A DNA stretch of 39,080 bases from a virus. Each line of letters starts with the position of its first letter. Positions within the stretch are counted from its first letter, which is position 1. The translations under genes and the position numbers were made by a program. This document shows positions 4,916 through 39,080 of the stretch, in pieces. The notes below the pieces were generated by a model. The model made no database searches. It was not told where the DNA came from and saw only the letters and a list, made by a program, of their open reading frames with translations. The stretch is taken from positions 1-39,080 of the IMG/VR virus record IMGVR_UViG_3300008107_000316. The stretch is one strand, 5' to 3'.

Positions 4916-5751
4916 AATCAATCAATACACTGGTAGAAGATATTTACAGTGTTGTTAGCGGGGGCTTAGCCCCTGTTACTAATAACAACAAGGTAGATAT
5001 AAGCTATGACAAATGGTTTACCCCACGAGATAAGTTGCGTGAACAGAAGGTGTTGTACTTCTCTGAAGTAGGTGATCCATGTGCACGTAGACTATGGTAT
5101 AAGTACAATATGCCTACCGTTGCTGAGAAGCCTGATGGTCGTGCCTTACTTAAATTCTTTTACGGAGACATTCTAGAAGAGTTGGTATTGAATGTGGCAG
5201 AGGATGCTGGTCACACAGTGGAGAAGAAACAGGAGCGAGTGGTTTACGACATTGGTGATGGTTGGTATGTACGAGGACGCATTGACGCTGTGATTGATGG
5301 TGCAATGGTTGACGTTAAGAGTGTTACTAAATATTCTGAAGAGAAGTTTAAAAACAACTTAGTCGATGACCCCTTTGGATATTACCAACAACTTAATGGC
5401 TATGCTACTTCTCTTAATTATAACGATGCTGGTTTTCTCACTATCCAGAAAGAGCTAGGCCATGTAAACTACTACCCTATTGAGGTGAACAAAGGTTTGT
5501 TTAAGATGCAAGCTGAACATGCGGCAGACACTGCTTCATTATCCAGCCCTGACAGCATCAAACGACTAGACCCTGTTCCAGCCAGTAAGACTAGTAAGAA
5601 CAAAAAGCTATGCACTAGTTGCAGTTATTGCAACTTTAAGAAAGAATGTTTTCCAGAGATGCGTACATTCTTATACGCCAGTGGCCCCGAGTTTCTAGTT
5701 GAAGTGGTAGATGTACCCCGAGTTATGGAGATTACCAATGCAAGTAATTAA
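4912..5751 (+). CDS. PD-(D/E)XK exonuclease with Fe-S cysteines (Cas4/RecB-like)
   Basis: 279 aa, GTG start overlapping the previous stop (GTGA). The nuclease core shows RGRID with Asp125, then Asp134-Val-Lys136 (DxK motif) and a downstream QQLNGYA motif. Cys57, near the N-terminus (DPCARRLWY), and Cys237-x2-Cys240-x5-Cys246 form the Cas4/AddB iron-sulphur cluster signature; Cys234 is an extra nearby cysteine. In T7-like phages an exonuclease in this position (gp6 role) removes primers, degrades host DNA and drives recombination. The replacement of the T7 gp6 fold by a Cas4-like enzyme is known in several podovirus groups. Confidence 0.88.
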   Translation: MKSINTLVEDIYSVVSGGLAPVTNNNKVDISYDKWFTPRDKLREQKVLYFSEVGDPCARRLWYKYNMPTVAEKPDGRALLKFFYGDILEELVLNVAEDAGHTVEKKQERVVYDIGDGWYVRGRIDAVIDGAMVDVKSVTKYSEEKFKNNLVDDPFGYYQQLNGYATSLNYNDAGFLTIQKELGHVNYYPIEVNKGLFKMQAEHAADTASLSSPDSIKRLDPVPASKTSKNKKLCTSCSYCNFKKECFPEMRTFLYASGPEFLVEVVDVPRVMEITNASN

Positions 5752-25547: not shown

Positions 25548-26129
25548 TTATGAGGGATCAATTAGTAAACAACTTAAACCAGCTTCTTTAGCAATAATAG
25601 CAGTAGATGAAGAAGTACCATCACCACCTACTTGTATTGTAACAATGTCATTAGCAGCTAAAGTAACATACCCATTAGAAGCTAAGTGTAATGTATCCAC
25701 ACCATTGGTTGTTTTTTTAACATACACTTTACGTGTAGATGCAGTGCCGTTTACAGCATAATGAAAGTTATACGCTGCACCGCTAGCAATTGCAGCAGTT
25801 TCAAATACAATCCAAAAATCAAGTTGGTAAATACCTGCTTGTGTAATTGTAAACTGTCCATTAGCTGCGGAAGGTGTAATGTTCTGGTATCCGTTAGCAA
25901 CCCATGCACCAGTTGGATTTAATTTAGCTAAAGCACTAGAAGCAGATAATGTTTGAGAAACACTGCTAGCAGTAATATATAAATCACCGTATGCGTGTCC
26001 AGCAATAAACTGCCATGTTCCACTACCACTACCATTAGCTACATACACTTTACCACTGGCGGCAGTAGATGCCCCTTTAGGTTCATGTAGTTGAGGGTCA
26101 GTAAGTGCTGAGTGCTGAATATTAGCCAT
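25548..26129 (-). CDS. Beta-rich virion protein with C1q/TNF-like C-terminus
   Basis: 193 aa. The start ANIQHSALTDPQLHEPKGA and a SGKVYVANGSGSGTW segment are common in phage virion proteins. The C-terminal ~120 residues look like a jelly-roll (QAGIYQLDFWIVFETAA, AYNFHYAVNG, DIVTIQVGGD), similar to C1q/TNF-like domains. It is probably a capsid decoration or fibre-like head protein, being placed between the capsid and tail tube A genes. Identification is by pattern only. Confidence 0.65.
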   Translation of the reverse strand: MANIQHSALTDPQLHEPKGASTAASGKVYVANGSGSGTWQFIAGHAYGDLYITASSVSQTLSASSALAKLNPTGAWVANGYQNITPSAANGQFTITQAGIYQLDFWIVFETAAIASGAAYNFHYAVNGTASTRKVYVKKTTNGVDTLHLASNGYVTLAANDIVTIQVGGDGTSSSTAIIAKEAGLSCLLIDPS

Positions 26130-26707: not shown

Positions 26708-27136
26708 TTAGATGGTAGACTTAGAGATGACTGACACTAAGCACTCAGGGCGATATAGCTTGAGTCCAAAACGTGCGTTCATCACATACTCGTCACGGCG
26801 TAGGTCTTTGTTACGCTCGTATTCAACACGAGGCATTTGACGATAAGCACCAACGAAAGGAGTTAGATCGCCACCAACAGACATAAACACGTTAGTCACA
26901 GGGGATGCAGGGGTGTTAACACTACCACGACCATCAGCGTTAATAGCTGTGTCAGTAGGAGTAGCTAGGAAGTTAGAAACATAAACGTCAAAGCCGAAAA
27001 TGTTTTTAACGAAACGCATACCAGTAACTTCGTTCACGAAACCACCGTTAACAATACCACCGAATTGTGGGTTGTTAATGAAAGCTTGTGCACCAACTGT
27101 TAGAACTACCAGAAGCAATGAAGCGGTGTGAAGCAC
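26708..27136 (-). CDS. Major capsid protein, C-terminal part (frame-shifted from the N-terminal part)
   Basis: The frame encodes the second half of a T7-like capsid protein: FINNPQFGGIVNGGFVNEV, then GMRFVKNIFGFDVYVSNFL, and near the end RRDEYVMNARFGLKLYRPE. The nominal GTG start at 27136 lies inside the first fragment, and the first ~14 codons (HTASLLLVVLTV) are probably out-of-frame noise. It is +1 relative to the N-terminal fragment. Together the pieces cover about 285 residues, where relatives have about 320-350, so bases appear to be missing at the join. It may be a real lesion or an assembly error. Confidence 0.75.
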   Translation of the reverse strand: MLHTASLLLVVLTVGAQAFINNPQFGGIVNGGFVNEVTGMRFVKNIFGFDVYVSNFLATPTDTAINADGRGSVNTPASPVTNVFMSVGGDLTPFVGAYRQMPRVEYERNKDLRRDEYVMNARFGLKLYRPECLVSVISKSTI

Positions 27137-27563
27137 CGTTAATTGAGTTGGCGTTGTTAGCAGTTTGTGTGTTAGCTAAAGAGAAAACAGAAGTTTCTAA
27201 GTTCTCATCTAAAGCTCGGCGCATCTTGGTAGGAAACATACCAATTAATTGTTGAGCGTAATAGCTGTCTTGCTTAGCCTTATCAGTGATATAGGTAGCA
27301 GATTCAACGTAACGATCAATAGTGAAGTTGAACTCACCAGTATCCATTGCGTCATACACAACGGGGGTTAGTTCAGCAGTTTCCCGCATTGGTAGTTCAC
27401 CAACAGAAGGAATTGTGAATTGGTTGCCATCAGGGAAACCATTTAGCATACGCACGTAGCGTGTGCCCATGAGTTGTTCTTGTAGAACGTCTTTTAGTTC
27501 AGCAGACCAAAGTTCTGCACGAACGAGGTTTTCATTAACCTTTGCGTAATCAACACCAGCCAT
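27075..27563 (-). CDS. Major capsid protein, N-terminal part (truncated by frameshift)
   Basis: 162 aa. It opens with MAGVDYAKVNENLVRAELW and has the T7-like capsid patterns SVGELPMRE, ITDKAKQDSYYAQQLI and MRRALDENLE, up to NGASHRFIASGS. After this it changes to SWCTSFH and stops (TAA 27075-27077). The expected continuation of the HK97-fold shell protein is in the +1 frame (26708-27136). As drawn, the product lacks the second half of the fold and could not build a shell. Starts 10 bases after the scaffold gene with a normal ribosome site (AAGGAG). Confidence 0.8.
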   Translation of the reverse strand: MAGVDYAKVNENLVRAELWSAELKDVLQEQLMGTRYVRMLNGFPDGNQFTIPSVGELPMRETAELTPVVYDAMDTGEFNFTIDRYVESATYITDKAKQDSYYAQQLIGMFPTKMRRALDENLETSVFSLANTQTANNANSINGASHRFIASGSSNSWCTSFH

Positions 27564-27573
27564 TTAATTCTCC

Positions 27574-28308
27574 TTATTGACCAAAATATAAGGTCGGGTT
27601 TTTAGAAACAGTTTGTTGTAACTTATATTGAAACTCTTGTGACCAGTAAGTGTTAGGATCATCTTTACGGACTTTAGTAGCCCATTCTTTTGTTCCTTCT
27701 ATCTTACTACGATCACCGCCATTTGAAGTTACGGAAGTGGTATTTACTGAATTGTTATCAAAGTTATTTGCTGGAAGGAATGACCCACCACCGAACAAAG
27801 ATACAAACTCAGTCGGATCAGTCGCAGCTAGTTCCATAAGGATACGGGCTTTATCAGGAGTTGAAGCTTTATGCTTAAACATCTGTTCTGCTTTATCACC
27901 AAACTTCTCTTTCATAAGAGCATCAGCTTTAAGCAAATTGCCTGTCTTAGTATCTTGCTGTTTACGACCCTCTAACGTCTTCTCTACAAGCTGTTGCACA
28001 ACATCAGGGGTTAGACCCTGTACAGGAGGATTGTCGGCCTCTGGTGCACCACTTTGCTTTGACATACGTTCCAAAACTTCATCAATAGTTTTAGCTGAAG
28101 CAGCTTGCTCACGTAGTTTACGATTTTCCTCTTTTAAGGTTTCAATAAACTGGTCAGCGTTATTATAAGCTTTAGCTAACTCGTCTGGAGTTTTGTATTT
28201 TTGCGTTTCACCCACAAGTGCAGTGAAAAGCGATCCATCAGTTGTCGCTGCTGGTTGGTTAGTGGAAGAATTGTCTGTCTCACCACTAAAAATTGTTGCA
28301 TTGGTCAT
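27574..28308 (-). CDS. Scaffolding (capsid assembly) protein
   Basis: 244 aa, between portal and capsid genes, the standard scaffold position. It is acidic and helical, with a coiled-coil stretch (NNADQFIETLKEENRKLREQA) and a C-terminal segment KEWATKVRKDDPNTYW followed by a helix, similar to T7 gp9-type proteins. The N-terminus is Ser/Thr/Asn-rich and likely disordered. It guides shell assembly and leaves before DNA packaging. Confidence 0.82.
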   Translation of the reverse strand: MTNATIFSGETDNSSTNQPAATTDGSLFTALVGETQKYKTPDELAKAYNNADQFIETLKEENRKLREQAASAKTIDEVLERMSKQSGAPEADNPPVQGLTPDVVQQLVEKTLEGRKQQDTKTGNLLKADALMKEKFGDKAEQMFKHKASTPDKARILMELAATDPTEFVSLFGGGSFLPANNFDNNSVNTTSVTSNGGDRSKIEGTKEWATKVRKDDPNTYWSQEFQYKLQQTVSKNPTLYFGQ

Positions 28309-28642: not shown

Positions 28643-28671
28643 ATACTACCACAATTACTGAGGCATGTCAA
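28643..28671 (-). promoter_or_regulatory. Sigma70-type promoter for the scaffold/capsid unit
   Basis: On the - strand a perfect TTGACA (28671-28666) is followed by a 17-base spacer ending in TGG and then TAGTAT (28648-28643), which matches four of six -10 positions and has the extended -10 TGn. The -35 lies in the last codons of the portal gene. Downstream are the small gene, scaffold and capsid, and then the intrinsic terminator at 26671-26700. Confidence 0.7.
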
Positions 28672-30412
28672 CATCTGGCCCTTCAGGGCTAATTGTGGCC
28701 TCAGTTTGAATGTCTTCAGATACCTGATTCATTAGTCGTTGTGTTTCAGCTTGTTCAAAAATCATAGCATTGTCTTGAACAATACGATAGTTCTGCCAAC
28801 CTAAATTCTCTTCCAAAGCTTTAGCAATAGCTTTACCACTGATATGAGCAGCCACAGTTGGCATAGCTTGTACAGCAGCCATAGTTTGTGACAATTCTTG
28901 AATGAATCTTGCTTGTTCACCATAATGACGAGCACCTAAAGGATAGATTTTACCAGCAGCCATTAGGTCATCTTTTGTAACGTCTACAAAGGATTCAGTA
29001 CCATAATCTTCGTCAATTGAACGAATACGCTCAACACCTTCAAAGTTACGTACAGCTTCAGCTAACATGCCGTTTAGTAGAGGTTCTAGGATGTTTCGTT
29101 CAAACCAACTCACCTTGCTTTGAAAAATACGTCCAGCAGCGTTCTCTAAGCTTTGTACTTCGTACTTTGTCTTCTCACCGGGGGTACGGATACCCATAGC
29201 CTGTTTAGGCGCTCCTGCAAGCTCTTCCATACGGTTCATAAGCTCATTAATCTGCATGTCAGCCTGTAATGCTGTAGCATCAGGACGTAAGAAAGTTAAA
29301 CTACCTTCGTCACCAACGAACACAGTGGCTCCGGGTTCGTATTCAAACTCTTCCACAGTGTTACCACCGACCACCATAACAGGGTAGGCAATGAGGTCAA
29401 ATACGTCTGCCTTCAAGTTTTCCAAATGGTCAATTCGGTATTGCATACCAACCAACTGGTCTAGTGGCCCTTGTGCCCAAAGGTTATCTGTACGTAATCT
29501 CCAACCACAATGGAACATGGGTTTGCTACCTGTCCACATTGGATTAGGTTGTTTACGTAAAATCCACTTACGATCAATAACTGTAATTAACTGGTTGCGT
29601 AAAAGCAGCTTCTTTTCAGGATCATAAATGTCTCCCCAAAACTCTAGCAACTCAACCATGTCACTTTCTAGGTATTCGTCAGCACTACCAAAGCCATCAA
29701 TAGCCATGTTCAATTCTTTCTTGAACTCTGGATCATCACGATAGTTTTGACGGAACTGTAAAGCTTTGTTTAACACTTCTTTGCTGTAGTTTAGTGCTGG
29801 CTTAGTCTCAATGTCAGTCATCAAGTCGCCTAGTGATTTAAGCATACGGCGCACTACAGGGGTCTTATCAAAGGTTTCAGCCAACGGATTAAACACAATG
29901 TCTGTAGGATTAATGCGATAGGCTTTAGGGCCAATGTAGCGACTAACTACATTACCTGTAGCGTCACTAATAACATCACGTATATAATCATATGTGACAA
30001 CTACGTTACCAAAATCAATGTAGTCGTAAACTAGTTGAGAAACAAGAAGTTGAAAGTTAGAAGCTTTTAGCTTCTGTTTCATGTAGTTAGTAATGGCATA
30101 ACGCTTTTTAGTTAACTCTTCACTTTTATCAGTGGCTTCCCAAAAAAACCAAGTCTCAGATGGGAACAACGCAGCCATGTAGTTGGCATGTAAGTTGTCC
30201 CTAATCTGAGTTAGTTTAGGAGTTACTGTAGAGTTTTTCCAAGGGAGTTTACTATTACTAGTTTTACGTGTATCAGTGGCAAACAAGTAGTTACGTAACT
30301 CTTGTTGGTCTGATTTCCATACCGAACGGTTAGTGTCCCACTTAACCCACATATCAGCAATTTTATTTGCTAGGCTATCGTTATCAAAACTTACTTGTAC
30401 GTTTTCGTTCAT
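28655..30412 (-). CDS. Portal (head-tail connector) protein
   Basis: 585 aa. T7 gp8-like portal patterns are seen: an N-terminal DMWVKWDTNRSVWKSDQQELR helix, FFWEATDKSEELTKKRYAI, a VSRYIGPKAYRINPTDIVFNP segment, and the C-terminal GAPKQAMGIRTPGEKTKYEV and QSKVSWFERNILEPLLN. It forms the dodecameric ring through which DNA enters and leaves. Order terminase large, portal, scaffold, capsid agrees. Confidence 0.9.
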   Translation of the reverse strand: MNENVQVSFDNDSLANKIADMWVKWDTNRSVWKSDQQELRNYLFATDTRKTSNSKLPWKNSTVTPKLTQIRDNLHANYMAALFPSETWFFWEATDKSEELTKKRYAITNYMKQKLKASNFQLLVSQLVYDYIDFGNVVVTYDYIRDVISDATGNVVSRYIGPKAYRINPTDIVFNPLAETFDKTPVVRRMLKSLGDLMTDIETKPALNYSKEVLNKALQFRQNYRDDPEFKKELNMAIDGFGSADEYLESDMVELLEFWGDIYDPEKKLLLRNQLITVIDRKWILRKQPNPMWTGSKPMFHCGWRLRTDNLWAQGPLDQLVGMQYRIDHLENLKADVFDLIAYPVMVVGGNTVEEFEYEPGATVFVGDEGSLTFLRPDATALQADMQINELMNRMEELAGAPKQAMGIRTPGEKTKYEVQSLENAAGRIFQSKVSWFERNILEPLLNGMLAEAVRNFEGVERIRSIDEDYGTESFVDVTKDDLMAAGKIYPLGARHYGEQARFIQELSQTMAAVQAMPTVAAHISGKAIAKALEENLGWQNYRIVQDNAMIFEQAETQRLMNQVSEDIQTEATISPEGPDVDMPQ

Positions 30413-39034: not shown

Positions 39035-39080
39035 AATCTTTTTAATGAAATGTTCTGGAACAGTTAATTATTATGAGATA

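Follow-up and report, generated by a model that had tools for sequence, protein, structure and literature searches.

Introduction

Can a phage carry its major capsid gene in two reading frames, or does such a break belong to the assembled sequence and not to the virus? The question is raised by a single virus record, IMGVR_UViG_3300008107_000316, which comprises 39,080 bases without ambiguous bases and is analysed here over its whole length (hereafter the window). Its gene content is that of a T7-like podovirus, with a replicative helicase, primase, DNA polymerase, ribonucleotide reductase, and thymidylate synthase on the plus strand and the large terminase, portal, capsid, tail, and internal virion proteins on the minus strand, and a nucleotide search against deposited phages returned short matches only. 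The record is incomplete as a genome at its right end, since two other contigs (G003 and G006) extend ∼580 and ∼675 bases past position 39080. Near the capsid gene, a minus-strand gene (25548–26129) encodes a protein that matches phrog_38624 over its first 48 residues and, in its C-terminal part, BclA_C (a TNF-like fold) weakly and below threshold; its product is possibly a head decoration or fibre protein.

Two fragments of one capsid gene

A sequence-only reading of the window had placed the two halves of the capsid gene in different frames, and both open reading frames were confirmed (Table 1). Each matches the major head protein profile phrog_267, the N-terminal fragment at profile positions 42–173 and the C-terminal fragment at positions 228–327, and the intact protein of a near-identical contig (L003, described below) matches positions 42–327 in a single stretch (E 4.6e-28). 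The N-terminal frame runs from a regular capsid start through HRFIASGSSN, continues with SWCTSFH, and then reaches a stop codon; its native part is 99.96–100% identical to the corresponding part of four contigs of the same phage population (L001–L004). In Pfam, the N-terminal fragment falls just short of the threshold for Phage_capsid_4 (26 bits vs 27), and the capsid proteins of intact relatives gave no match. A profile of the capsid protein (A1) matches the solved phage major capsid protein 9jwb_A at positions 5–227 (E 4e-12), including the residues that are missing from the window, and the 9jwb capsid, by its family, presumably has the HK97 fold. AlphaFold2 modelling of an intact relative from a shallow alignment of 14 sequences gave a mean pLDDT of 30.8, too low for a usable model.

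Table 1. Positions in the window of the capsid gene fragments, the join between them, and adjacent features.
Position	Strand	Feature	Basis
26708..27136	-	Capsid C-terminal fragment, 142 aa, in the +1 frame relative to the N-terminal part; native from VGAQAFINNPQFGG	ORF, phrog_267
27075..27563	-	Capsid N-terminal fragment, 162 aa; residues 1–155 native, followed by out-of-frame residues and a stop	ORF, phrog_267
27097..27099		Junction; 116 bases present here in four contigs with 99.96–100% identical flanks are absent; one-base ambiguity (A)	Sequence comparison
27442..27568		127-base block ending at the first base that separates L002 and L006 of sample 3300031963; L002 starts at its upstream end	Comparison
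27574..28308	-	Probable scaffolding protein gene, intact, directly upstream of the capsid gene	phrog_7931 (unknown function); scaffold by position
28655..30412	-	Portal / head-tail adaptor gene, intact	phrog_332

A 116-base gap relative to near-identical contigs

The loss of about 120 bases, not a multiple of three, had been proposed near 27075–27110, and comparison with L001–L004 gave an exact size and place for it. These four IMG/VR contigs come from four other sample sets, and at window position 27098 each of them carries 116 extra bases, which are identical in all four. The flanks are 100% identical to the window in L001–L003 and 99.96–99.98% identical in L004, which has one mismatch upstream and two downstream of the gap, and the flank matches of L003 and L004 cover more than 10 kb at the capsid locus. 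In all four contigs, the capsid gene is a single open frame of 323 codons, and division of 116 by three leaves a remainder of two, so that its loss shifts the frame. The region that the sequence-only reading had placed at this point in relatives (DFAYA..ALKKANVP..IVDPS) corresponds to DFAKAKFALDKAQAGGSRVAIIDPS in the closest relatives. When whole contigs were searched, the 100% match of G003 to the window reached 12.0 kb to the upstream side of the gap and 7.1 kb to the downstream side, the gap being the sole insertion or deletion, and G002 extends the 100% match 8.8 kb further downstream without another break. Over the compared stretch, the window therefore departs from an intact and repeatedly sampled haplotype only by the gap.

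Distribution of the missing segment among relatives

Two scans of IMG/VR, one with the N-terminal capsid part and one with an alignment, each yielded 80 loci, which came largely from the same contigs. In the first scan, the missing segment was present in all 80 loci; complete capsid genes of 318–323 codons were found in 75, four loci were truncated past the segment by the end of their contig, and in the remaining one, L072, the capsid gene was fused to the upstream gene. In the second scan, the segment lay in a single open frame in all 80 loci, one of which was cut by its contig end. A short two-frame organisation in close relatives, which had been named as one of the findings that would speak against a defect, was looked for, and neither scan contained, among its 80 loci, a capsid gene split at the window's site. 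In addition, 118 deposited phage genomes carry the segment, each matching the intact protein over 80% or more of its length at a single place, and the residues lost from the window are conserved among relatives. The exact junction, searched as a 30-mer and as a 20-mer, occurred in no other IMG/VR contig, a search from which records very near the window may be excluded, and the intact right border of the segment was found in five IMG/VR contigs.

A second defective contig was present in the set. L072 (IMGVR_UViG_3300008266_004224), from another species of the family, lacks 109 bases at about position 4999 relative to L030, to which it is 100% identical across the 1,294 bases surrounding the join that were compared, again with a 1-base overlap. 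Its gap removes the last part of the probable scaffold gene upstream together with the initial capsid codons, and the loss fuses that gene to capsid residue 15 in one frame that is open by chance. Its junction sequence was likewise found in no other IMG/VR contig, and no palindrome of 14 bp was found in the stretch of L030 around the gap. Among 46 near-identical sequence pairs of the set, only the window and L072 showed a gap of this kind, and the loss in L072 is probably another assembly fault. Isolated losses of ∼110 bases in both contigs indicate that such events happen more than once in contigs of this type, which supports a technical cause.

Strain branching at the capsid gene

Sample 3300031963 contains two relevant contigs, L002, which has the capsid haplotype of the window, and L006, which matches the window without a difference from 39080 to 27442 (about 11.6 kb) and then diverges inside the capsid gene, with 39 differences between 27441 and 27104 and ∼80% identity downstream. 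L006 may have arisen by natural recombination at the capsid gene, or it may be a contig that is chimeric between strains. L002 begins at window position 27568 and precedes the first difference, at 27441, by exactly 127 bases; an overlap of 127 bases is what a branch in a de Bruijn graph with k = 127 would give. The start of L002 and the divergence of L006 in one sample thus point to strain mixing as something that breaks assemblies at the capsid gene. An identical block of 59–65 bp, common to L006, L009, and L010, has its first base at the right end of the window's gap; the left end coincides with no special strain border. Such block borders account for 0.8% of positions across the 10.5 kb locus and for 2% within the capsid gene; these coincidence figures, like that for the palindrome described below, were obtained after the fact and do not serve as proof. 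Of 33 contig ends lying within 5 kb among the relatives of the first scan, 20 lie no more than 2 kb past the N-terminal part, a modest excess that lends weak support to a strain-branch artefact. Coexisting viruses with highly similar regions are documented to give smaller and chimeric contigs in metagenome assembly (PMC5610896).

Origin of the gap

The split capsid gene of the window is very probably the product of a local assembly collapse that dropped 116 bases of a normal HK97-type capsid gene encoding 323 residues. Mixed strains would be the likely cause, where related phages in the same waters share identical blocks inside the capsid gene and the assembly graph may consequently branch and merge at these blocks. 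The assembler or a scaffolder could then have joined two paths while skipping the 116-base segment, and butt-joining of the flanks would shift the frame. Since the overlap at the join is a single base, a simple collapse at a k-mer repeat does not fit, and the join would require that a scaffolder butted the flanks together or that a rare chimeric read linked them; the joining probably took place in software or through such a read, not in the dominant phage genome, and the phage itself would make an ordinary capsid protein. Whether by butt-join or by chimeric read, the window contig probably misrepresents a working phage genome. An artefact of this kind is tested by independent near-identical assemblies, and L001–L004 are without the defect. 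The earlier preference for an assembly error or a mixed population over a dead phage is supported by the presence of the segment in these four contigs and by the mixing seen between L002 and L006.

There is a small but real chance that the assembler captured a genuine 116-bp deletion present in a minority of the phage genomes of the window's sample, perhaps originating from polymerase slippage at a palindrome and perhaps maintained briefly by complementation in co-infected cells. The flanking haplotype is equal on both sides of the gap, and a 14-bp perfect palindrome, ACCAACTAGTTGGT, has its centre at the gap's right end. This palindrome lies at positions 5575–5588 of L003 in the intact capsid gene and is the sole palindrome of at least 14 bp in the 10.5 kb L003 locus; it could point to a physical cause. 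De Bruijn assemblers normally require reads that span a join, and because a 1-base overlap is no k-mer repeat, a molecule bearing the deletion could exist. Against such a deletion stand the absence of the junction from other IMG/VR contigs and the similar loss in L072, where the stretch examined has no 14-bp palindrome. Moreover, a phage that lacks a complete capsid protein is unable to propagate by itself, and a deletion allele should therefore not dominate the consensus. That a capsid-deletion genome circulates in the window's water sample as a natural defective dsDNA phage, packaged via intact sister phages, is less probable again. A library-preparation artefact at palindromes was also considered and rejected as a source of the gap, because its mechanism gives inverted chimeras and not deletions (PMC10908179).

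A genuine two-frame capsid gene, expressed by +1 frameshifting or as two subunits, would agree with the 62-base overlap of the two open reading frames and with the GTG start of the second, but it is hardly credible. No purine-rich ribosome-binding sequence lies just upstream of the GTG, and the first residues of this frame are out-of-frame capsid sequence from the left flank. The organisation occurs in no relative (80 loci of either scan), and a fused product would be without ∼39 residues that are present in every retrieved relative and align to 9jwb; this conservation and alignment make it unlikely that such a product could build a capsid. There is no evidence for an unusual expression of the capsid gene. 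A dead or decaying prophage, or a relic with a pseudogenised capsid gene, would account for the breakage of an essential gene and is very improbable, since the remaining structural and replication genes that were tested have long open frames matching phage families, and since the window is 100% identical to intact viral contigs; with 19 kb identical to other viral contigs except for the gap, no decay has accumulated. The split is an artefact, or at most a rare defective molecule, and involves no new mechanism.

Implications and comparison with known phages

The probable collapse carries a small warning about sequence quality, as ∼110 bases of the capsid gene can vanish unnoticed, where strains mix, from a viral contig that looks polished and has no ambiguous bases, and automated annotation would then report a split or missing capsid gene or, in a case such as L072, a fused scaffold-capsid protein. 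The two cases are alike in their isolated loss and 1-base overlap and differ in that the gap of L072 lies at the start of the capsid gene and keeps the frame open. The strain-heterogeneity errors benchmarked in PMC5610896 have a cause like that proposed for the window, and short internal deletions of exactly this form are not described in the passages concerned. With flanks 99.96–100% identical between L001–L004 and the window, only L001–L004 have the 116 bases and an open capsid gene of 323 aa. Among more distant phages, the capsid proteins of SIO1-, P12053L-, ICBM1-, and CRP-4-type marine podoviruses (PHROG 267) are 42–44% identical to the protein of the intact relative over 94–99% of its length, and their genes are single and continuous, in contrast to the window's copy without the 116 bases. 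As biology, the capsid of the window is an ordinary one.
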